Below are positions 4,008-25,131 of a stretch of DNA of 39,887 bases, in pieces (position 1 is the stretch's first letter; the number at the start of each line of letters is the position of its first letter). The stretch is taken from contig CACZGA010000007.1 of NCBI GenBank assembly GCA_902780585.1, positions 1 through 39,887 on the forward strand. The letters run 5' to 3'. The notes under the pieces were generated by a model. It worked only from the letters and a program-made list of their open reading frames with translations. It ran no database searches and was not told the origin of the DNA. The DNA is from an uncultured Erysipelotrichaceae bacterium. GTDB taxonomy: Bacteria; Bacillota_I; Bacilli_A; RF39; UBA660. The position numbers and the translations under genes are program-made.

Positions 4008-4661
4008 ATGAAGAAATTATTATTTATACTTATAGTCTTATTTGTACCAATAATAGTATCTGCTAAAGCTACAACCAAAGAAGGTGTAATGGAAACTATT
4101 AGTACCATTCAAAATACTCAAGTAGATGATGAAATAGTTATTAAGAATACTACTATAAATACAAATGAAATAACACTAGAACTATTAGAATCAAATAAAG
4201 TAGTAACAAAATCTATTCCATATACATGGAGTGATAATAAATTAATTTTAAGCGGTGGAACAATAAAAAGAGGAGAAGCCCCAGAAAATAATCAATATGC
4301 TTTCTATATTTATTCAATATTAGAAAGTAAAACAACTGCTCCATATGAAGAAAACCATTACTATAATTCAACCCTTATAAGAAAAATGTTAGAAGAAAAC
4401 ACAAAAAAAATAATAGAAGATCATAATACTGGAGATACCTTTTCTATTATTTTAAAAGAAACTGATAATAATATATACCAAATAGAATATCAATACAATT
4501 TAGCTGGAGATGATGCTCCGTTAGTAAGTCAACAAGAGATAAATACCGATGCTGTTTTAACAAATCCAAATACAGGTAACATTCATTTCTATATCACAGT
4601 CTTATTAGTTATTATGCTAGGAATAACTGCTTATACATATTGGGGAAAAGACCCCGTATAA
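4008..4661 (+). CDS. Secreted, C-terminally membrane-anchored protein with NPNTG motif
   Basis: I do not recognise the family. The 217-residue product starts with a clear signal peptide (two Lys, a hydrophobic stretch, likely cleavage near VSA at residue 18). The middle is a polar domain of about 160 residues with predicted beta character. The C-terminus has NPNTG, then a hydrophobic segment of about 20 residues and a short tail. That order resembles a sortase-type sorting signal (NPxTG), but the tail (GKDPV) is not strongly basic and no sortase gene is in the window, so it may simply be a membrane anchor. The ribosome-binding site (AGGAG) is good. It lies 12 bases before the next gene, so the two are probably one operon. 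Confidence 0.75.
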   Translation: MKKLLFILIVLFVPIIVSAKATTKEGVMETISTIQNTQVDDEIVIKNTTINTNEITLELLESNKVVTKSIPYTWSDNKLILSGGTIKRGEAPENNQYAFYIYSILESKTTAPYEENHYYNSTLIRKMLEENTKKIIEDHNTGDTFSIILKETDNNIYQIEYQYNLAGDDAPLVSQQEINTDAVLTNPNTGNIHFYITVLLVIMLGITAYTYWGKDPV

Positions 4662-4673
4662 AAGGAGATTATT

Positions 4674-5252
4674 ATGAAAAAAAAGAAAAAAGAAAAAGAA
4701 CTATACGATGATTGTTGGTTATATATTCTTTTGTTATCTACCTTAGTAATATTACTAGACTCAATAAAGAAGTATACCTTTACTTGCTTAAATGTTAATT
4801 TAACATATTCTCTATTCTTATTACCAGTAGAGTATTTTATAGTAGCCTATATTGCTAAGAAATATGATTATAAAAAAGCTGTTGCAGCTATATCTATGTC
4901 TGGAGTTTTACTAGTATGCTTCAATGCTACAGTAGCCTTCTTCCTACATGAGCAACTATTCTTAACAAATGTAAGTGGCGAATTCTGTGGTTATGTCATA
5001 AGTCAATTTGTATTTCTATTAATGTATTTCTTCTTAATGAATAATACAAAAATGCCACCTATACTAGTATATGGTACTTATTTATTTTCTATATTTGTAT
5101 TTTATATATTTTATACATTAGTATATATTAATCATATTAATCTAAATCATTACTGGACTGGCTTCTTTATAACATTCATTATTCAAGGAATTATATGTAT
5201 TGGACTAGTATATTTAGATAATAAAATTAAAAGAGGACAAGAAACTAAATAA
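4674..5252 (+). CDS. Six-TM integral membrane protein of unknown function
   Basis: The 192-residue product begins with a very basic N-terminus (MKKKKKEKE) and then shows about six hydrophobic segments (roughly residues 15-31, 42-62, 67-90, 103-122, 128-150 and 158-180). The size and six-helix layout resemble small S-component or VUT/YhhQ-like transporters, but I see no motif that fixes the family, so this is only a suggestion. The ribosome-binding site is AAGGAG. It directly follows the signal-peptide protein at 4008 and is closed by its own terminator. Confidence 0.65.
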   Translation: MKKKKKEKELYDDCWLYILLLSTLVILLDSIKKYTFTCLNVNLTYSLFLLPVEYFIVAYIAKKYDYKKAVAAISMSGVLLVCFNATVAFFLHEQLFLTNVSGEFCGYVISQFVFLLMYFFLMNNTKMPPILVYGTYLFSIFVFYIFYTLVYINHINLNHYWTGFFITFIIQGIICIGLVYLDNKIKRGQETK

Positions 5253-5269: not shown

Positions 5270-5292
5270 AAAAAAAATAGCCATATGGCTAT
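5270..5292 (-). terminator. Rho-independent terminator of the CPBP protease gene
   Basis: The palindrome ATAGCCATATGGCTAT (5277-5292) is followed on the minus strand by seven T. The stop codon of the minus-strand gene (5289-5291) is inside the stem. It faces the plus-strand terminator at 5241. Confidence 0.7.
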
Positions 5293-6484: not shown

Positions 6485-8665
6485 ATGAAGAAAAAGAAAG
6501 TATTCGAATTAGATTTTCATGGAAGAAAACTAGTAGTTGAACATAATGAATTAGCTAAACAAGCAGATGGTTCTGTATTAGTAAGATATAATGATACTGT
6601 TATTTTAACTGCTGCTGTTGTTTCTAAAAATGTTAACTTATTAAGTGACTTTTTTCCATTAACAGTTAACTATCAAGAAAAACTTTATTCAGTAGGAAAA
6701 ATACCAGGTGGTTTTATTAAAAGAGAAGGACGTCCAAGTGAAGCTGCTACTCTTGCTGCTCGTATGATTGATCGTCCAATGCGACCACTATTCCCAAAGG
6801 GATTTAAAAATGAAGTACAAGTTATTTCAATGGTATTATCAGTAGACCAAGATTGCTCACCAGAACTAACCGCAATGTTTGCTTCTTCTCTAGCAGTTTC
6901 TATCTCAAAAATTCCATTTAATGGACCAATTGCTGGTGTAAAAGTAGGTAGGGTAGATGGTAAGTTTATTATTAACCCAACGCCAGAAGAAGCTGAAAAA
7001 TCAGATTTAGACTTAACAGTCGCAGGTACTAAAGATGCCATCAACATGGTTGAATCAAGTGCTAAACAAGTATCTGAAGAAATAATGTTAGAAGCTTTAA
7101 TGTTTGGTCATAAAGCCGTAAAAGAATTAATTAAATTCCAAGAAAAAATCATCAAAGAAATTGGTGAAGAAAAAATGGAATATGAAACTCTTACTCCTGA
7201 ACCAGAATTAATCGAAAGAATTACTGCTTTAGTAACTAAGAAACTTGATAAAGCTCTTCGTATTAAAGATAAGATTAAGAAGTATACAACTATTGATGAA
7301 ATAAAAGAAGAAATGAATGAACTATTTACTAAAGAAAACGAAGATACAATGAAAGAAGAAGAACTAAAAGAATTATTAGTAAAGGTTCAAATGGTAATCT
7401 CAGATATCGAATATGAATTATTCAGAAGTATCGTAGTTAAAGAAAAACTAAGAGCTGACGGACGTAAGATGGACGAAATTAGGCCATTATCTACAGATAT
7501 CGATTTACTACCACGTACTCATGGTTCTGCTTTATTTACTAGAGGAGAAACTCAAGCTTTATCAATTACCACTTTAGGTGCTCTAAACGAACATCAAATA
7601 ATAGATGGTTTAAGTATGGAAGATCAAAAGAGATTTATGCTTCACTATAACTTCCCACAATTCTCAGTTGGAGAGACTGGTAGATATGGGGCTCCAGGAA
7701 GAAGAGAAATTGGCCATGGTGCCTTAGGTGAAAAAGCCCTTGCCCAAGTAATTCCTTCTGAAGAAGAATTCCCATATACAATTCGTGTAGTATCAGAAAT
7801 TCTAGAATCAAATGGTTCATCTTCTCAAGCAAGTATTTGTGCTGGTTGTATGTCATTAATGGCAGCTGGTGTACCAATAAAAGCACCTGTTGCTGGTATC
7901 GCTATGGGATTAATTACTCATGAAGATAAATATACTATTTTAACTGATATCCAAGGTATGGAAGATCACTTAGGAGACATGGACTTTAAAGTGGCTGGTA
8001 CTGAATATGGTATTACTGCTCTTCAAATGGATATTAAAATAAGTGGAATCACTGAAGATATTTTAAAAGAAGCTTTAGAACAAGCTCGTAAAGCTCGTCT
8101 AGAAGTATTAAAAGTAATGAAAAAACAAATTAAAGAACCACGTAAAGAAGTATCTAAGTATGCTCCTAAGATGGAAACATTTATGATTAATCCAGCTAAG
8201 ATAAAAGACGTAATTGGTAAAGGTGGAGAAATGATTACTAAAATCATTTGTGAAGCCTCTAATGTTACTGAAGTAACTAATATCAATGCTGTAAAAGTAG
8301 AATTAGAAGATGATGGTAGAGTTATAATTTACCACTCAGATAAAGAAATCATTGAAAAAACAAAAGCTATGATTGAAGAAATAGTTAGAGAAGTAGAAGT
8401 AGGCAAAATCTATGAAGCAAAAGTAGTAAAAGTAGAAGACTTTGGTTGCTTCGTACAATTATGGCCAGGTTGTGAAGGAATGGTTCATGTTTCTCAACTT
8501 GCTAACGAAAGAGTAGAAAAAGCTAGTGACGTTGTAAGTGTTGGAGACGAAATTATAGTAAAAGCTTTAGGTCTAGACAAGAAAGGTAGACAGAACTTCT
8601 CAAGAAAAGAAGCTTTACCAAAACCTAAAGAAAAGAAACCAAAAAAAGAGAAAGAAGATGAGTAA
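6485..8665 (+). CDS. pnp: Polyribonucleotide nucleotidyltransferase (PNPase)
   Basis: PNPase degrades RNA 3' to 5' using phosphate and is a core mRNA-decay enzyme, forming a trimer. The 726 residues show the full domain order: first RNase PH domain (about 1-135, [16 protein letters not shown]), an all-alpha domain, second RNase PH domain (about 310-540, [17 protein letters not shown] and the MDFKVAGT segment with catalytic acidic residues), KH domain (VIGKGG) and C-terminal S1 domain ([19 protein letters not shown]), ending in a Lys/Glu-rich tail. It follows rpsO by 44 bases and ends in a strong terminator. Confidence 0.98.
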
Positions 8666-8678
8666 TCTTCTTTTTTTC
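8651..8678 (+). terminator. Rho-independent terminator of pnp
   Basis: A 9-bp stem AAAGAAGAT (8651-8659) with ATCTTCTTT (8665-8673), a 5-base loop and a T-run. The left arm is within the last pnp codons. Confidence 0.8.
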
Positions 8679-8706
8679 TTGAAAAATAAGAAAAATGTGT
8701 TATAAT
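8679..8706 (+). promoter_or_regulatory. Promoter with extended -10 (TTGAAA-16-TATAAT)
   Basis: TTGAAA (8679-8684), a 16-base spacer, and TATAAT (8701-8706) preceded by TGT. It lies immediately after the pnp terminator and 22 bases before the ATG at 8729. Confidence 0.7.
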
Positions 8707-8728
8707 ACAGGTAACGGAGGGATATCGG

Positions 8729-9178
8729 ATGTGGGAATTAATAAAAAATATTATTAAATGGATTATTATTGTAGCTTTAATTATTTTAGTAATTATGGGT
8801 ATTTCTAAAATTGTTAATAAAAAGAAAGTTGCTACAAAAACATCTCAGACAGAAATAAAAACAATTAAAAAGACCAATACTGAAGAAACTAATGAAAGTA
8901 CTACTACAGTAGAAAATTCAACAACAACAGAAAATACAACTACAAACAATACTACTAATAATAACACTACTACAAATAATTCAAGCAATACAAATACAAA
9001 TAATAATACAAGTAATTCAAATAATAAGAATAATACAAGTAATACAAATGGAAATTCAAGCCTAGAAGTTGTAGAAATAGCAAATACTGGAACTAATATG
9101 GGTATTACCATATGGGTAGGATTATTTGTATGTACATCAACAATTGTTTATATTAATAAACAAAAAAGATATGAATAA
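8729..9178 (+). CDS. Thr/Asn-rich low-complexity membrane protein with C-terminal ANTG motif
   Basis: No family is recognised. The 149 residues consist of an N-terminal transmembrane segment (about 9-27) followed by a Lys cluster, a 70-residue stretch made almost only of Thr, Asn, Ser and Glu, then IANTG and a second hydrophobic segment ending in a basic tail (NKQKRYE). The TG-helix-basic-tail order resembles a sortase sorting signal in which Leu-Pro is missing. Alternatively it is a simple two-helix protein with an extended external loop. The region 8880-9060 is built of ACT/ACA/AAT triplets. It has its own promoter and terminator, so it is a single-gene unit. Confidence 0.7.
   Translation: MWELIKNIIKWIIIVALIILVIMGISKIVNKKKVATKTSQTEIKTIKKTNTEETNESTTTVENSTTTENTTTNNTTNNNTTTNNSSNTNTNNNTSNSNNKNNTSNTNGNSSLEVVEIANTGTNMGITIWVGLFVCTSTIVYINKQKRYE
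8880..9060 (+). repeat. AAT/ACT/ACA triplet-rich low-complexity tract
   Basis: About 180 bases inside the gene at 8729 consist largely of near-repeated triplets coding Asn, Thr and Ser. Changes of whole triplets would keep the frame, so the linker length may vary between strains. Confidence 0.6.
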
Positions 9179-9183
9179 AAAAA

Positions 9184-9208
9184 GAGGTTCTAATTTAGAA
9201 CCTTTTTT
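9184..9208 (+). terminator. Rho-independent terminator after the Thr/Asn-rich gene
   Basis: Stem AGGTTCTA (9185-9192) with TAGAACCT (9196-9203), a 3-base loop and six T. Its 15-bp core GTTCTAATTTAGAAC (9187-9201) recurs exactly at 10165-10179. Confidence 0.8.
9187..9201. repeat. 15-bp terminator-core repeat, copy 1
   Basis: GTTCTAATTTAGAAC, palindromic apart from the central bases. The second copy at 10165-10179 lies on the far side of the gene at 9329, so that gene sits between two identical direct repeats 978 bases apart. Confidence 0.65.
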
Positions 9209-9269
9209 GATGATAACTTAGTTATGACTTTAGGACTAATATATATACTATAGAAGGCTTTTTCATTCA

Positions 9270-9298
9270 TTGAATTTCATATTATTATTTGCTATAAT
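9270..9298 (+). promoter_or_regulatory. Promoter of the 9329 gene (TTGAAT-17-TATAAT, extended -10)
   Basis: TTGAAT (9270-9275), a 17-base spacer and TATAAT (9293-9298) preceded by TGC. The surrounding bases (TTCATTGA at the -35, TTGCTATAATATG at the -10) match the promoter of the paralogous gene on the other strand at 10958-10986. Confidence 0.8.
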
Positions 9299-9328
9299 AT
9301 GGAATATATTTGTGGAAGGAGACATTAT

Positions 9329-10156
9329 ATGAATAATTGTGATAGTAGACATTCTCGGGCTTATTTTGAAGATGGTAAGAACTTTAGCTTTTACAGTGAT
9401 GAGCAAAAAGAAAAGCAAAAAGAAAAAGGTTATTGTTCCAAAGATGGTAGAAGTAATCATACATTTTGTTTTGATGGTGTTGTGTGTGGGTATTATGAGT
9501 TTGAAGATAAAACGTTCATTCTAACTAAGGGTTGTGAAGACTCAAAGCTATTCTTTGCAGGTTTACTAGATGAGGGTCTAATATTTCAGGATAAAGATAA
9601 CTGCTTTATGTTTAGTGGCAACAATAAGAAAGCACGAGAGAAAGCACAACGAGAATTCCCAGTTGGAAGCATTTTATCAATTACTGTGCGCAAAAATAGT
9701 AATGGAAAAAGTCTACGCTCTTTTGAAGTCAAAAAAACTTCTAATAAATGGGATGAACACTCCGTATCGACAGATTTTCCACGGGATGTTATTACTCTTT
9801 TACATGGGCTTGACTTTTCGTGCGTTTTTAGTGGAAATACAATTAAAGGATTTGTTTTTGGTCCTACCGATGATAATATTATTGATGTTCATATTGAGAA
9901 TGGTATTACAAGTAGGACATTCACAATTAATAAAAAGCGTGATCGACTTCTTTGCTATCCACAACCAAAAGGTATTATTATAATTAATGGCTATAATGCA
10001 AGTGTTTACAGAGGGAATATTATAATTGGGGCATTTGGAACATCTACATCTAAGAGATATTTTTCAGCAATAACACCTTTAGAAGCGGAAGATGCATTTA
10101 CTCAGAGAAAGAAACTAATAAAAATAATAGACAGATATGGGGAACGAAAACAATAA
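9329..10156 (+). CDS. Protein of unrecognised family, paralogue of the 10193-10927 product
   Basis: I do not recognise the family. The ATG at 9329 is chosen over the upstream in-frame ATG at 9299 because it has GGAAGGAG in place and 9299 would lie at the promoter. The product is 275 residues, with no signal peptide and no membrane segment, and is rich in aromatic and beta-forming residues. It aligns along its whole length with the minus-strand neighbour: F-G-VV/II then YY, CE, GL, and FPVGS (residues about 112-116) in the first half; KG-V, RL-CY-P, and G..GT..F..TP.E in the second. Each protein looks like two related beta-rich halves. Nine of about 16 Arg codons are CGN, including CGA, CGG and CGC, whereas nearby core genes use almost only AGA or CGT, which suggests transfer. 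It is an isolated unit between two terminators. Confidence 0.75.
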   Translation: MNNCDSRHSRAYFEDGKNFSFYSDEQKEKQKEKGYCSKDGRSNHTFCFDGVVCGYYEFEDKTFILTKGCEDSKLFFAGLLDEGLIFQDKDNCFMFSGNNKKAREKAQREFPVGSILSITVRKNSNGKSLRSFEVKKTSNKWDEHSVSTDFPRDVITLLHGLDFSCVFSGNTIKGFVFGPTDDNIIDVHIENGITSRTFTINKKRDRLLCYPQPKGIIIINGYNASVYRGNIIIGAFGTSTSKRYFSAITPLEAEDAFTQRKKLIKIIDRYGERKQ

Positions 10157-10157
10157 C

Positions 10158-10187
10158 AAAAAAAGTTCTAATTTAGAACTTTTTTTA
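10158..10187. terminator. Bidirectional terminator between the two paralogous genes
   Basis: A perfect 13-bp stem (10158-10170 with 10174-10186) with a 3-base loop, A-run on the left and T-run on the right, so it can stop both converging transcripts. The core is the same 15-bp sequence as in the terminator at 9187. Confidence 0.85.
10165..10179. repeat. 15-bp terminator-core repeat, copy 2
   Basis: GTTCTAATTTAGAAC, identical to 9187-9201. Recombination between the copies would remove the 9329 gene and leave a single intact terminator. Confidence 0.65.
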
Positions 10188-10192
10188 TTTTA

Positions 10193-10927
10193 TTATCTAT
10201 GTTGACCTAATCCTTCATTTCCTATTTGTTTGACTTTTTCGGGTGTGAATAGGAAAAATTGGTAATCCCCAGTACCAGCTAAGCCACCAAAAAAACATTT
10301 TACATCTTCACCATCTATTAAATTAGGGTCGAAGTAACAATTTACTAGACGAGCATCTTTAGGTATAGAAAATGGTTTTTTGTTTTTTGAATAAAACCAC
10401 CAACTATCTTTTTCCTTTATAACGACGCCTTTAAATCTTTTGCCTTGATATATAAAAGATTTATTAAAAGATTTAAAATAATCTAATTCATCTTCTGAAA
10501 GAATGTTTGGTTTAAATCTCTCTAAATGCTTACTATATTCTTCAACCATTCTTATCGGAGGTGTAAATACTCCATAAATAATTTTATCATCTACAGGTAA
10601 ACCCAACTTATTAAGACTTCTAACTTTTTTAGCACAAACCCGTACAAGACTTCCTACTGGAAATGAATTCTTGATACTTTCCCATTGATTATTGGTACAT
10701 TTTTTATTAAATTCATCTACATTAAAACACCCAAAAAAGCATAATCCCCCAGTTTTACCCAATGACCCAAATAAGAGTTTATCCCCATTTTCACAGTCTT
10801 GAATAGTAACAAAATGATTACCTCTAACATCATAATATTGATCAATAATTCCAAAAAAGATATAGGGCCATCCTTTATCTAAAGAGACTCTAATATTTCT
10901 AAACGTGTCTTTAGAATAAGCATCCAT
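10193..10927 (-). CDS. Protein of unrecognised family, paralogue of the 9329-10156 product
   Basis: The 244-residue product has no signal peptide or membrane segment and no motif I can assign. It shares with the convergent neighbour the segments FGII...YY, DCENGDKLLFGSL, GLCFFG, FPVGS (residues about 89-93), FKGVV, RLVNCYFDP and LAGTGDYQFFLFTPEK. Within the protein, LLFGSLGKTGGLCFF and CFFGGLAGTGDYQFF look like repeats of one another, so the protein probably arose from an internal duplication of a beta-rich module of about 100 residues. Its ATG has GGAAGTGA upstream. It is divergent from smc, with the two -35 boxes only 7 bases apart. Function unknown; Arg codon use is closer to that of neighbours than in the paralogue. 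Confidence 0.75.
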   Translation of the reverse strand: MDAYSKDTFRNIRVSLDKGWPYIFFGIIDQYYDVRGNHFVTIQDCENGDKLLFGSLGKTGGLCFFGCFNVDEFNKKCTNNQWESIKNSFPVGSLVRVCAKKVRSLNKLGLPVDDKIIYGVFTPPIRMVEEYSKHLERFKPNILSEDELDYFKSFNKSFIYQGKRFKGVVIKEKDSWWFYSKNKKPFSIPKDARLVNCYFDPNLIDGEDVKCFFGGLAGTGDYQFFLFTPEKVKQIGNEGLGQHR

Positions 10928-10957
10928 AAATTAGTCACTTCCTAAAATATAGCTCAT

Positions 10958-10986
10958 ATTATAGCAACAAGCCATAATAAAATCAA
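10958..10986 (-). promoter_or_regulatory. Promoter of the 10193-10927 gene (TTGATT-17-TATAAT, extended -10)
   Basis: On the minus strand TTGATT (plus 10981-10986), 17 bases, TATAAT (plus 10958-10963) preceded by TGC. Closely similar to the promoter at 9270-9298, sharing TTCATTGA and TTGCTATAATATG. Confidence 0.8.
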
Positions 10987-10993
10987 TGAATTG

Positions 10994-11022
10994 TTGCTGA
11001 AACAAACCTTTTATAGTATAAT
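10994..11022 (+). promoter_or_regulatory. Promoter of smc (TTGCTG-17-TATAAT)
   Basis: TTGCTG (10994-10999), a 17-base spacer and TATAAT (11017-11022), 20 bases before the smc ATG. Back to back with the minus-strand promoter at 10958-10986. Confidence 0.8.
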
Positions 11023-11042
11023 GTGGAGTAGGGTGAAATAAT

Positions 11043-13997
11043 ATGTATTTGAAAGGTATAACGACAAGTGGCTTTAAATCATTTGCAGATAAAATAGAAC
11101 TAAAATTAGATGATAAAATAACTTGTATTGTAGGGCCTAATGGTTCAGGAAAAAGTAATGTAGTAGATGCAGTACGTTGGGTATTAGGAGAACAATCAGT
11201 TAAATCTCTAAGAGGAGAAGGTTCTATGACTGATGTAATCTTCTCAGGTTCTAAGTCAAGAAGCCCTCTAAATGTAGCTTCTGTAGAATTAGTTTTTGAT
11301 AATACCGATCATTATATAAATATCCCATATACTGAAATATCTATTAAAAGAAGAGTATATCGTAGTGGTGAAAACGAATATTATTTAAATAATGAAAAGT
11401 GCCGTCTAAAAGATATTACTAATTTATTATTAGATAGTGGTATGGGTAAAGAATCTTTTAATATTATTTCCCAAGGAGAAGTAGATAAAATATTAAGTAA
11501 TTCTGGGACAGATAGAAGAGTAATCTTTGAAGAAGCTTCTGGAATATTAAAGTATAAAAAAAGAAAAGAAGAAGCTCTTCGTAAATTAGATAGAACTCAT
11601 AATAATTTAGAAAGAGTAAATGACATCACCACAGAATTAGAAATGCAAATAACACCTCTTAAAGAACAAAGTGAAAAAGCTAAAGAGTATTTAGAAAATA
11701 AAAAAGGCTTAGATCAATATGAAGTAGCCTTATTAGCTTATGATATAGAAACTATAAATCATTCTATTGAAACATCTAAAGAGAAAAAAGAAAAACTAGA
11801 AAATGAAATATTGGTTTTAAATAATGAAACAAATACTTCTTCAGTAGAAAGCTTAGAAGATGAAAAAAAATTAGATTATCTCCAAAAAGAATTATTAGAA
11901 TGGAATCAAAAATTATTAAGATTAACAGAAGAAAAAGAAAAAATATTAGGTGAAAAAAATCTTCTAATTGAAAAGAATAAATCTTCTAAAGAAGAGGAAG
12001 AAGTAAAAGAAGAACTAAGAAGAAAACTAGAAGAAAAAGAAACTGTAGAGGCAAACATAAAAGTACTTGAAACAGAATTAAAAGAATTAACAGAAAATCT
12101 AAGTAAAAAAGACCAATTGAAAAAAGATTCTGAAAGAGAAATGCAAAATCATAAATTAAAGAAGAATATCTTAATGAATGATTTTTCTACTCATTCTACA
12201 GAAAGAATTACTCTACAACATAAGATTGATGCTTTGAATAATGAAATAGAACAGAATAGTGATATGCCTAATAGTGTCAGAAAAGTATTAAATAATACTT
12301 CCTTAACTGGAATATATAATACAATTGGTAATGTAATTGGTACTGAAGAAAAGTACATAAAAGCTCTAAATACTGCGATTGCATCTAATAAAAACTTTGT
12401 AATAACCAAAGATGAAGAATCTGCCAAAAAAGCCATTGCTTATTTAAAAGATAATCATCTAGGTAGAGCAACTTTCTTCCCTCTTAGTGTTATAAAAGAA
12501 AGAGAAGTAGATTTAGAAACATTAAATATTGTAAAGAATAGTAATGATTATCTAGGTGTTATGTCTGATTTAATAACTTATAATAAAGAGTTTGATAAAG
12601 TAATTAAAAACCAATTAGGAATAGTTTTAGTTGTAACTGATATAGATGCTGCTACTAGAATATCTCATATGATAAAAGCTAAATATAGAATTGTTACTTT
12701 AGAAGGAGACGTCGTAAATGTAGGAGGAAGTCTTACTGGAGGTTCTGCCTATCATGGTAAAAGCACAATTATTTTAAAACAAGAATGTAAACACCTAGAA
12801 GAGAAAGTTGAACTTCTAAAACAAGAGGAAAAAGAAATTCAACAAGAAATATTAGATTTAAATAAAGAAAGTGACTCTTTAGAAGAAAAAATACTAGAAC
12901 AATCTAAAGAAAAAGCCGCTCTAGAACAAATTCTTTTCTCAAAACAAGAAGCCTTAAAGAAGGAAAAAGAAAAGAAAGAAATAATTTTAAAAGAACAAGA
13001 ATCTCTAGAAGCTATAGAAAATAATTCACTAGATCAAAAAGAACAGGAATATATTCGCTTATTCCATGAAAAGAGTGCCGAAAAAGACCAAGTGGAAATT
13101 AAAATTCAATCTCTTAATAGAGAAATAAGTGAATTAAAAGATAAAATAGAAAAAGAAGAAGCTGAAGATAAGCTAAAAAACTCTCGTCTTCGTAGTTTAG
13201 AAAAAGAAGCTAAGGATTTAGAAATATTAATAAATAGAAATGATGTAAAACTAGATAACATGTTACAAATACTAAATCAAGAGTATGAATTAACTTACGA
13301 AAAAGCTAAACAAGATTTTGTCTTAGATATAGAACCAGAAGAAGCTAGAAAAAAGGTTGATACCTATCGTAGTAATATTAAAAGAATAGGTATGGTTAAT
13401 ATAAGTGCTATTGAAGAATATGAAAAAGTAAATACCCGTTATGAATTCTTAACAAACCAAAAAGAAGATTTATTAAAAGCCGAAGATACCTTACTAGATA
13501 TTATGAAAGAAATGGATTCTATTATGAAAGAAGAATTTAAAACAACATTTGAAGAAATACGTATAGAATTCCAAAAAGTATTTAAAGAACTATTTAATGG
13601 TGGGAATGCTGATTTAAAATTAACAAATCCTGAAGATTTATTAGAAACAGGTGTTGATATAGTTGCTTCTCCTCCTGGCAAGAAACTAACAACAATCTCA
13701 CTATTATCAGGTGGAGAAAAAACTTTGACTGCTATCTCATTGTTATTTGCTATACTAAATGTTAGAACAGTACCATTCTGTATCTTTGATGAAGTAGAAG
13801 CAGCTCTAGATGAAGCAAATGTAGCCGGCTTTGGTAAATACTTAAGTCACTATAAAGATAAAACTCAATTCTTAATTATTACCCATAAAAAGAAAACTAT
13901 GGAATACGCTAATACATTATATGGTATTACAATGCAAGAATCTGGAGTATCAAAATTAGTAAGTGTAAAATTAGAAGGGGCACATGAAGTATTATAA
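11043..13997 (+). CDS. smc: Chromosome segregation/condensin protein SMC
   Basis: SMC is the ATPase core of bacterial condensin (with ScpA and ScpB, not in this window), which organises and separates chromosomes. Visible: Walker A GPNGSGKS (residues 31-38), a long coiled coil rich in Lys/Glu, a hinge (about 410-560, with SLTGIYNTIGNVI and GGSLTGG), the returning coiled coil, the ABC signature LSGGEK (from residue 888) and Walker B FCIFDEVEAALDEAN (Asp916, Glu917). At 984 residues it is about 200 shorter than Bacillus SMC; the missing length is in the coiled-coil arms, while heads and hinge look complete. Mollicute SMCs are similarly short. rnc and ftsY, its usual neighbours, are absent. Confidence 0.97.
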   Translation: MYLKGITTSGFKSFADKIELKLDDKITCIVGPNGSGKSNVVDAVRWVLGEQSVKSLRGEGSMTDVIFSGSKSRSPLNVASVELVFDNTDHYINIPYTEISIKRRVYRSGENEYYLNNEKCRLKDITNLLLDSGMGKESFNIISQGEVDKILSNSGTDRRVIFEEASGILKYKKRKEEALRKLDRTHNNLERVNDITTELEMQITPLKEQSEKAKEYLENKKGLDQYEVALLAYDIETINHSIETSKEKKEKLENEILVLNNETNTSSVESLEDEKKLDYLQKELLEWNQKLLRLTEEKEKILGEKNLLIEKNKSSKEEEEVKEELRRKLEEKETVEANIKVLETELKELTENLSKKDQLKKDSEREMQNHKLKKNILMNDFSTHSTERITLQHKIDALNNEIEQNSDMPNSVRKVLNNTSLTGIYNTIGNVIGTEEKYIKALNTAIASNKNFVITKDEESAKKAIAYLKDNHLGRATFFPLSVIKEREVDLETLNIVKNSNDYLGVMSDLITYNKEFDKVIKNQLGIVLVVTDIDAATRISHMIKAKYRIVTLEGDVVNVGGSLTGGSAYHGKSTIILKQECKHLEEKVELLKQEEKEIQQEILDLNKESDSLEEKILEQSKEKAALEQILFSKQEALKKEKEKKEIILKEQESLEAIENNSLDQKEQEYIRLFHEKSAEKDQVEIKIQSLNREISELKDKIEKEEAEDKLKNSRLRSLEKEAKDLEILINRNDVKLDNMLQILNQEYELTYEKAKQDFVLDIEPEEARKKVDTYRSNIKRIGMVNISAIEEYEKVNTRYEFLTNQKEDLLKAEDTLLDIMKEMDSIMKEEFKTTFEEIRIEFQKVFKELFNGGNADLKLTNPEDLLETGVDIVASPPGKKLTTISLLSGGEKTLTAISLLFAILNVRTVPFCIFDEVEAALDEANVAGFGKYLSHYKDKTQFLIITHKKKTMEYANTLYGITMQESGVSKLVSVKLEGAHEVL

Positions 13998-19516: not shown

Positions 19517-19558
19517 AAAAGTGTCACCACTGGCAACACAATTATGAAAGGAGTAAAT

Positions 19559-20449
19559 ATGAATTATTATAATGAAATAAAAAACAAACTAATTGATAAT
19601 GAAGTATATGTAAAAGTAAAAGACTATTCAAAAGAAAGATATAAAGTTATTACATATTTTGAAATAGGTAAATTATTGAATGAAGCTGGTGGTAAATATG
19701 GAGATAATATTATAGATGAATATTCTAAAAAGTTAGTTATTGAAGTTGGTAAAAAGTATAATAGAAGAACTTTGTTTAGAATGAAGAAATTCTACAATGT
19801 ATTTAGCAATGAGAAAGTGACAACAATGTTGACACAATTAACTTGGTCACATTATTTACTATTATTATCGATAAGTGATTATGATGAAATAATATATTAT
19901 ATAAATATATCTAAAAATAATAATTTAACTCAAAGACAATTACAAGAAAAAATAAAAAGTAATGAATATAAAAGAATACCTATTGAATCAAGAAACAAAT
20001 TAAACAAAAATGAAATTCTTAGTCCAAACGATTTAATTCCTAATCCAATAATAATTAAAAATAGTAATAATTACGAAAATATATCAGAAAAAACATTACA
20101 ACGACTAATACTTGAGGATATTGCATCTTTTTTGAAAGAGCTTGGGAATGGATTTACATTTATAGATAATGAATATCAAATAAAATTTGGTAATAGATAT
20201 AATTATATAGATTTACTTTTATATAATATTAAATATAAATGTTATGTAGTAGTAGAATTAAAAGTTACTGAACTCAAGAAAGAACATACTGGTCAAATTA
20301 TGGCTTACATGAATTACATTGATAAAAATATTAAAACAATGGAAGAGAATGATACAGTAGGAATAATAATTTGTAAACAAGATAACGAGTATGTAATTAA
20401 ATATTGTTCTGATGATAGAATAATTGCTAGAGAATATGAATTAGTATGA
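19559..20449 (+). CDS. DUF1016 (YhcG-type) PD-(D/E)XK nuclease-domain protein
   Basis: The start is at 19559, 8 bases after AAAGGAG; the ORF opens 15 bases earlier inside that site. The 296-residue product matches the DUF1016/YhcG family: an N-terminal helical domain (YFEIGKLLNEA, RRTLFRMKKFY, LTWSHYLLLLSI, SEKTLQRLILEDI) and a C-terminal restriction-like nuclease fold with YIDLLLYN (Asp218) and VVVELK (Glu233, Lys235), followed by GQIMAYMNYID. Family members occur near restriction-modification or phage-defence genes and on mobile DNA; the substrate is not established for this protein. Here it stands alone after comEC, with no methylase or specificity gene nearby, which suggests an acquired orphan. 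Confidence 0.9.
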   Translation: MNYYNEIKNKLIDNEVYVKVKDYSKERYKVITYFEIGKLLNEAGGKYGDNIIDEYSKKLVIEVGKKYNRRTLFRMKKFYNVFSNEKVTTMLTQLTWSHYLLLLSISDYDEIIYYINISKNNNLTQRQLQEKIKSNEYKRIPIESRNKLNKNEILSPNDLIPNPIIIKNSNNYENISEKTLQRLILEDIASFLKELGNGFTFIDNEYQIKFGNRYNYIDLLLYNIKYKCYVVVELKVTELKKEHTGQIMAYMNYIDKNIKTMEENDTVGIIICKQDNEYVIKYCSDDRIIAREYELV

Positions 20450-24534: not shown

Positions 24535-25131
24535 ATGAAAACTAAAATAATTAAAATTAATAATACAAATGATTATAATAAGTTTTTGAATAAACTATTT
24601 CTATACAAAAGTGTATTTTATTATAATACTCTCTTTGTAGTTGATACTAAAACAGATAATAAAATGCTTACTTATATAATAGAAGCTTTAAATATAAAAA
24701 ACCGCAAAAAAAGAATAACATATATCTATGATAATGCTTGTAAAACGATTGATGACGCAACACCTGAAAATATGTGTGGCTTTAAAAATGGTAAATGCTA
24801 CCTTCAACGTAGGTCAAAAAGTAATAAATGTAATGGTTGTTGTAGAAAATGTTTATATCAATCAAAAGAAGGTTGCCCAACTAAGAATTTGGCTTGTAAA
24901 TTATTTAACTGTTCAGAAGTAAAATCAAGATATAACATGATAACAGCTGATGATTTAAAAATATTACGCTTACTAAGTCTAAAAAACCAATTGGTTATAA
25001 AATCAGATTATTTTTCCAAAAGAGAAGATGTCTTAAAAGACTTATATGCTTACACTTTAACTTATTCTACTATAAGAGTAGTTTATAGATTAATTAAAAA
25101 CAACTATTTATTAAAAAAAGACGTATTATGA
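24535..25131 (+). CDS. Cysteine-rich protein of unknown function (10 Cys in the middle)
   Basis: A 198-residue soluble protein with ten Cys in 58 residues (69, 81, 88, 99, 102, 103, 106, 114, 121, 126), including CNGCCRKC and a GCPTKNLACKLFNC segment. Such a cluster suggests binding of Zn or Fe-S clusters. I believe similar hypothetical proteins occur in other Firmicutes, but I cannot name the family or function. The N-terminal 65 residues are mixed alpha/beta and the C-terminal 70 look helical, possibly a DNA-binding or interaction domain. It has its own extended -10 promoter and terminator, so it is a single-gene unit. Confidence 0.75.
   Translation: MKTKIIKINNTNDYNKFLNKLFLYKSVFYYNTLFVVDTKTDNKMLTYIIEALNIKNRKKRITYIYDNACKTIDDATPENMCGFKNGKCYLQRRSKSNKCNGCCRKCLYQSKEGCPTKNLACKLFNCSEVKSRYNMITADDLKILRLLSLKNQLVIKSDYFSKREDVLKDLYAYTLTYSTIRVVYRLIKNNYLLKKDVL

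Follow-up and report, generated by a model that had tools for sequence, protein, structure and literature searches.

Two convergent genes between pnp and smc

Two open reading frames, P1 and P2, lie between pnp and smc within a housekeeping region of the window, by which we mean the whole stretch of 39,887 nucleotides that was analysed. From inspection of their translations we take the genes of this region to be nusA, infB, rbfA, rpsO, pnp, smc, def, ftsW, comEA/EC, dnaG and rpoD. The features at the locus are:

9329..10156, plus strand: P1, ORF of 275 aa, a cytosolic-type orphan protein
10193..10927, minus strand: P2, ORF of 244 aa, an orphan protein
9316..9321, plus strand: ribosome binding site of P1, AAGGAG, read from the sequence
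10935..10943, minus strand: ribosome binding site of P2, AGGAAGTGA, read from the sequence
9270..9298, plus strand: promoter-like site of P1, TTGAAT-17-TATAAT with extended -10 TG, a consensus match only
10958..10986, minus strand: promoter-like site of P2, TTGATT-17-TATAAT with extended -10 TG
10155..10189, no strand assigned: palindromic bidirectional terminator common to P1 and P2, stem 10163-10181, with an A-run before and a T-run after
9174..9208, no strand assigned: palindromic terminator of 35 nt that follows gene 8729-9178 upstream of P1 and shares about 90% identity with the P1/P2 terminator

The initial annotation described two convergent genes sealed by one terminator, and the sequence bears out both the two ORFs with their orientation and the single palindrome that closes them. 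Coding scores were positive for P1 and P2, that of P1 being the lowest and most atypical codon score among the 33 window genes scored. The proteins have pI values of 8.9 (P1) and 8.8 (P2), GRAVY values of -0.59 and -0.42 and a cysteine content of 2.9% each, and by inspection neither has a hydrophobic N-terminus or a membrane segment. Elsewhere in the window, at 19544-20449 (plus strand) between comEC and a large extracellular-type protein, a 301-aa protein resembles, by eye, YhcG/DUF1016 nucleases.

Similarity of P1 and P2

Each protein was divided into two modules for comparison:

9461..9751, plus strand: P1 module 1, residues 45-141, homologous to P2 module 1, with an OB-like model
9764..10078, plus strand: P1 module 2, residues 146-250, a beta-rich module of marginal similarity to P2 module 2
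10625..10867, minus strand: P2 module 1, residues 21-101, homologous to P1 module 1
10238..10498, minus strand: P2 module 2, residues 144-230, with a homologous counterpart in the second module of the orthologue described below

BLASTP found a single significant stretch between the two proteins, residues 45-122 of P1 against 21-101 of P2, with 26/84 identical positions and an E-value of 5e-6. The module 1 alignment reached z 11.8, where the maximum among 424 unrelated protein chunks from the same window was 5.2, and judged by these alignments the homology of the first modules is real. For module 2 the scores were z 2.9 (local) and 3.3 (global), each equalled by 1 of the 424 unrelated chunks; homology here is marginal and suggestive only, plausible by collinearity alone. 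The alignment along the whole length that was originally described is thus not confirmed, being clear for the first module and marginal for the second. An internal repeat had also been proposed within P2, and this we could not recover, as the two halves scored z 1.8 locally (8.7% of unrelated chunks did as well) and -0.7 globally, which is not above chance. A two-module architecture seems plausible, since similarity joins P1 and P2 in module 1 and P2 and its orthologue in module 2.

Searches for relatives

Neither protein was matched in Pfam, NCBIfam or PADLOC, and extending the Pfam search up to E 10 gave nothing for whole proteins or single modules, the CSD and S1 profiles included. All PHROGs matches had E > 0.1, and PDB sequences gave chance-level matches only; falcipain, spike protein and diadenylate cyclase, which came up in the profile-library and PDB searches, were set aside as matches at chance level. 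Pattern scans of IMG/VR and a search of 50,697 phage records gave no relative, a tblastn match of 37 bits to a Vibrio phage being incidental. Against 72,556 plasmids P1 had no match at all and P2 weak chance hits only. Literature searches found nothing on the family.

We further searched whole-genome samples of the family (193 and 386 genomes), the genus (39), the order (385) and the class (395) with profiles from two or three divergent sequences, which are weak and may miss distant members elsewhere, and all samples together gave one convincing relative, named P3, in genome G205. No P1 homologue was present among the 39 genus genomes, and the window's own genome yielded no further member. Sub-threshold hits of the genome scans (L008, L010, L062-L076, L100-L108; single proteins, A1, A2) were rejected, those inspected being unrelated or antisense. 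Named by eye, they include an ABC-F ATPase region, a Trk-like protein, PheT and RelA; such unrelated hits serve as a gauge of how high chance scores run. The P1/P2 family is unrecognised and very rare. The original description of an unrecognised two-module family is in agreement with the module 1 homology and the empty family searches, while its two-module part is plausible.

A P2 orthologue without P1

G205 is the draft metagenome-assembled genome RUG12568, congeneric with the window's organism, labelled uncultured Erysipelotrichaceae and 85% identical in SMC. It carries:

L042:7551-8177, minus strand: P3, 205-208 aa, directly upstream of smc

P3 is divergent from smc and has the same orientation and distance to it as P2. 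The two proteins are 27% identical (BLASTP 4e-6), module 2 reaches z 10.8, and the intergenic DNA between P2 and smc, promoter included, is conserved with 82/106 aligned bases identical. On account of this shared place, orientation and spacing, the protein similarity and the conserved intergenic DNA, P3 is the positional orthologue of P2. P3 is acidic (pI 5.1) and contains 3.8% cysteine; no metal motif could be recognised by eye in the cysteine-rich P1, P2 or P3. Another protein of the window, 198 aa at 24535-25131 (plus strand) with 5% cysteine and a central cluster CNGCCRKC...C...C, is possibly metal-binding.

A search of G205 found no copy of P1. Its place is held by a polysaccharide-deacetylase-like gene convergent with P3, whose Polysacc_deac_1 match of 21.6 bits is sub-threshold (cut-off 23.1) and which many further genomes of the genus also carry in the pnp-smc interval. 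Since this unrelated gene also stands tail to tail with P3, convergence is a property of the slot and not of the pair. Further, G205 keeps the P2 orthologue without P1, and hence P1 and P2 are not an obligatory pair, as seen in one informative relative, a draft MAG. Independent occurrence of the two genes was the observation that the initial annotation had named as refuting its proposal, and this relative shows it.

The variable pnp-smc interval

The pnp-smc interval (window 8665-11043; L042-L099) is a variable accessory slot in the genus. Its commonest cargo is the deacetylase-like gene together with a small membrane-anchored protein, and other relatives carry long repeat proteins (DUF285), DUF3137 proteins, AbiEi-winged TPR proteins and others. 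We considered a defence island and discarded the idea, as the weak AbiEi-like wing hits occur in two relatives only and most of the cargo is unrelated. In G205 a 215-aa orphan (L042:5548-6195, plus strand) without Pfam or PADLOC match lies between pnp and the small membrane gene. The small proteins at 8729-9178 and 4008-4661 and their L042 orthologues have ends that combine a TG-type motif with a membrane segment and basic residues; these ends (ANTGT..., NPNTGN..., and PDTAS in relatives) resemble variant cell-wall sorting signals.

P1 is bracketed by two near-identical 35-nt palindromic terminators (9174-9208 and 10155-10189). Their core, GTTCTAATTTAGAAC, occurs only at the two sides of P1 and is absent from the rest of the window, from 378 kb of the same genome and from the loci of relatives. 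G205 has terminators at both corresponding places, but these are not copies of each other. P1 could well have come in as a cassette, carrying the terminator with it or duplicating it, and our confidence in this is evenly divided. No deacetylase-like gene was found elsewhere in the incomplete genome that carries P1, hence P1 may have replaced it.

Divergence of the family

Between the same two genomes, identity is 97% for pnp, 85% for smc, 75% for the membrane gene at 4674 and 65% for the CPBP-type protease at 5289, and the small genes at 4008 and 8729 are 58% and 67% identical. P2 and P3, at 27%, thus compare with 58-97% for six other genes of the region. Four-fold sites are 40-60% identical between the two genomes, which places neutral sites near saturation and suggests that P2 and P3 diverge almost at the neutral-site rate. 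Judged on these identities, the P1/P2 family is very fast-evolving.

Predicted structure

AlphaFold gave mean pLDDT values of 35.6 for P2 (three sequences) and 37.1 for P1, and values of 50-56 were confined to portions of P1 module 1, around residues 48-66 and 99-120. At a pLDDT of about 50, P1 module 1 (residues 43-141) is modelled as beta1-beta2-beta3-alpha-beta4-beta5, a five-stranded OB-type barrel. Its structural neighbours by Foldseek and VIA-align scored Z 4.4-6.2, with an rmsd of mostly about 3 A over 55-73 residues; it should be noted that Z values up to 6.2 can arise without kinship, and that no PDB Foldseek E-value was below 0.04. From general knowledge we take these neighbours to be mainly OB folds, namely LEF-3, the anticodon domains of the class II synthetases AspRS, LysRS and AsnRS, HIN-200, Stn1 and Teb1, and likewise EF-P, LigE, cold-shock domains and RecO.

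The likeness to OB-fold domains, among them the tandem ones of HIN-200, LEF-3 and Teb1, consists in the predicted strand order and five-stranded barrel of P1 43-141. P1 and P2 differ from them by the lack of any sequence profile match and by low model confidence, and the P2 model did not reproduce the OB result and had no interpretable neighbours. For cold-shock and S1 domains a likeness can be seen by eye (a G-V strand, an F/I strand, a D/K-FF strand, then VGS-x-L-x-V), and cold-shock domains of Unr are among the structural neighbours of P1 module 1 at Z 5.0, but by inspection the RNP motifs are absent from P1 and P2 and Pfam gave no match at E 10. Kinship of P1 module 1 with the S1 region of the window's own NusA was dropped, as the best match was not above chance. 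An OB fold for module 1 seems about evenly balanced on the models. For the basic P1 and P2, single-stranded nucleic acid would be the likeliest ligand class, a guess that we hold with low confidence; the acidic nature of P3 counts against a conserved nucleic-acid surface.

Alternative explanations

The initial annotation suggested that P1 and P2 form a functional pair, such as a heterodimer, a toxin/immunity or a ligand/receptor system. The genes lie side by side, share a homologous module 1 and run towards a common terminator, and the only genome carrying P1 has both. Against this, G205 retains the P2 orthologue without P1 and has the unrelated deacetylase-like gene as its convergent neighbour, the promoter-like sites are separate, and P1 and P2 show no match to toxins, immunity proteins, defence genes or secretion signals, so that a functional pair is very unlikely. 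The conserved co-occurrence across related genomes, as for an obligate two-gene system, was likewise not found in the one informative relative, this draft genome. The resemblance to type II toxin-antitoxin pairs lies in two small neighbouring genes; P1 and P2 differ in that they run towards each other from separate promoter-like sites, each with a ribosome binding site of its own, instead of being co-transcribed, that they are homologous to each other, that one occurs without the other, and that Pfam, NCBIfam and PADLOC contain no toxin or antitoxin family matching them. Nor do inspection and the GRAVY values indicate the secretion signal of a secreted toxin/immunity pair. That P1 and P2 are unrelated and match in module 1 by chance is extremely improbable. 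Their match of 17-18.6 bits in whole-genome HMMER scans is indeed equalled by the strongest chance hits from some 400 genomes, and the case for homology therefore rests on the single comparison of adjacent genes; in that comparison the E-value and z-score lie well over the same-genome chunks, and the module 1 alignment is collinear.

The orphan status of the genes, the atypical codon score of P1, the terminators that bracket it and the variability of the slot would all be in accordance with phage- or plasmid-derived accessory genes captured between pnp and smc. The phage records, plasmids and IMG/VR scans contained no relative, however, and no integrase or recognisable phage gene adjoins the locus by inspection, and we regard such an origin as unlikely. 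Another question is how P2 obtained its two modules. Similarity in module 1 joins P2 with P1 (z 11.8) and not with P3 (z 0.6), whereas in module 2 the P2-P3 similarity (z 10.8) far exceeds that of P1 and P2 (z 2.9). P2 could be a mosaic, in which module 1 was exchanged with P1, through gene conversion or a swap of modules, once the sister species had split, while module 2 is ancestral, and inverted neighbours would then diversify through exchange. The three sequences are near the detection limit, modules evolving at unequal rates in P3 or P1 would look no different, and no tract remains at the DNA level. The pattern would fit exchange and unequal rates alike, three sequences being too few to separate them, and we consider a mosaic rather unlikely. 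Highly improbable is the wider idea of a new two-module family whose inverted neighbouring copies exchange modules to give species-specific combinations, as a small chromosomal diversification device beside smc.

Proposed explanation

The reading we favour, and to which we give about an even chance, is that P1 and P2 belong to a fast-evolving, lineage-restricted orphan family in the variable pnp-smc interval, and that they are independently transcribed, a non-obligatory pair and possibly OB-type binders. P2 would be the resident member, pointing away from smc and preceded by a promoter region that the sister species has kept as well. P1 would be a second member in the place of the deacetylase-like gene, between near-identical terminators that resemble a cassette boundary. 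Transcription probably starts separately for each gene and halts at the common terminator. We speculate that the products are soluble cytosolic binding proteins, with an OB-type five-stranded barrel as first module and another beta-rich module as second, and that the ligand they recognise changes quickly.

On present results we do not uphold the proposal of a new two-component system. The finding is modest, as the homology is real but limited, and what it describes is a fast-evolving orphan family, possibly of OB type, in an accessory slot. It contributes a lineage-specific protein family to the known bacterial orphans and places it in a variable accessory slot between two housekeeping genes. 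If both the OB fold and the module exchange are true, the locus would exemplify how small binding proteins are rapidly renewed among neighbours that keep 58-97% identity.
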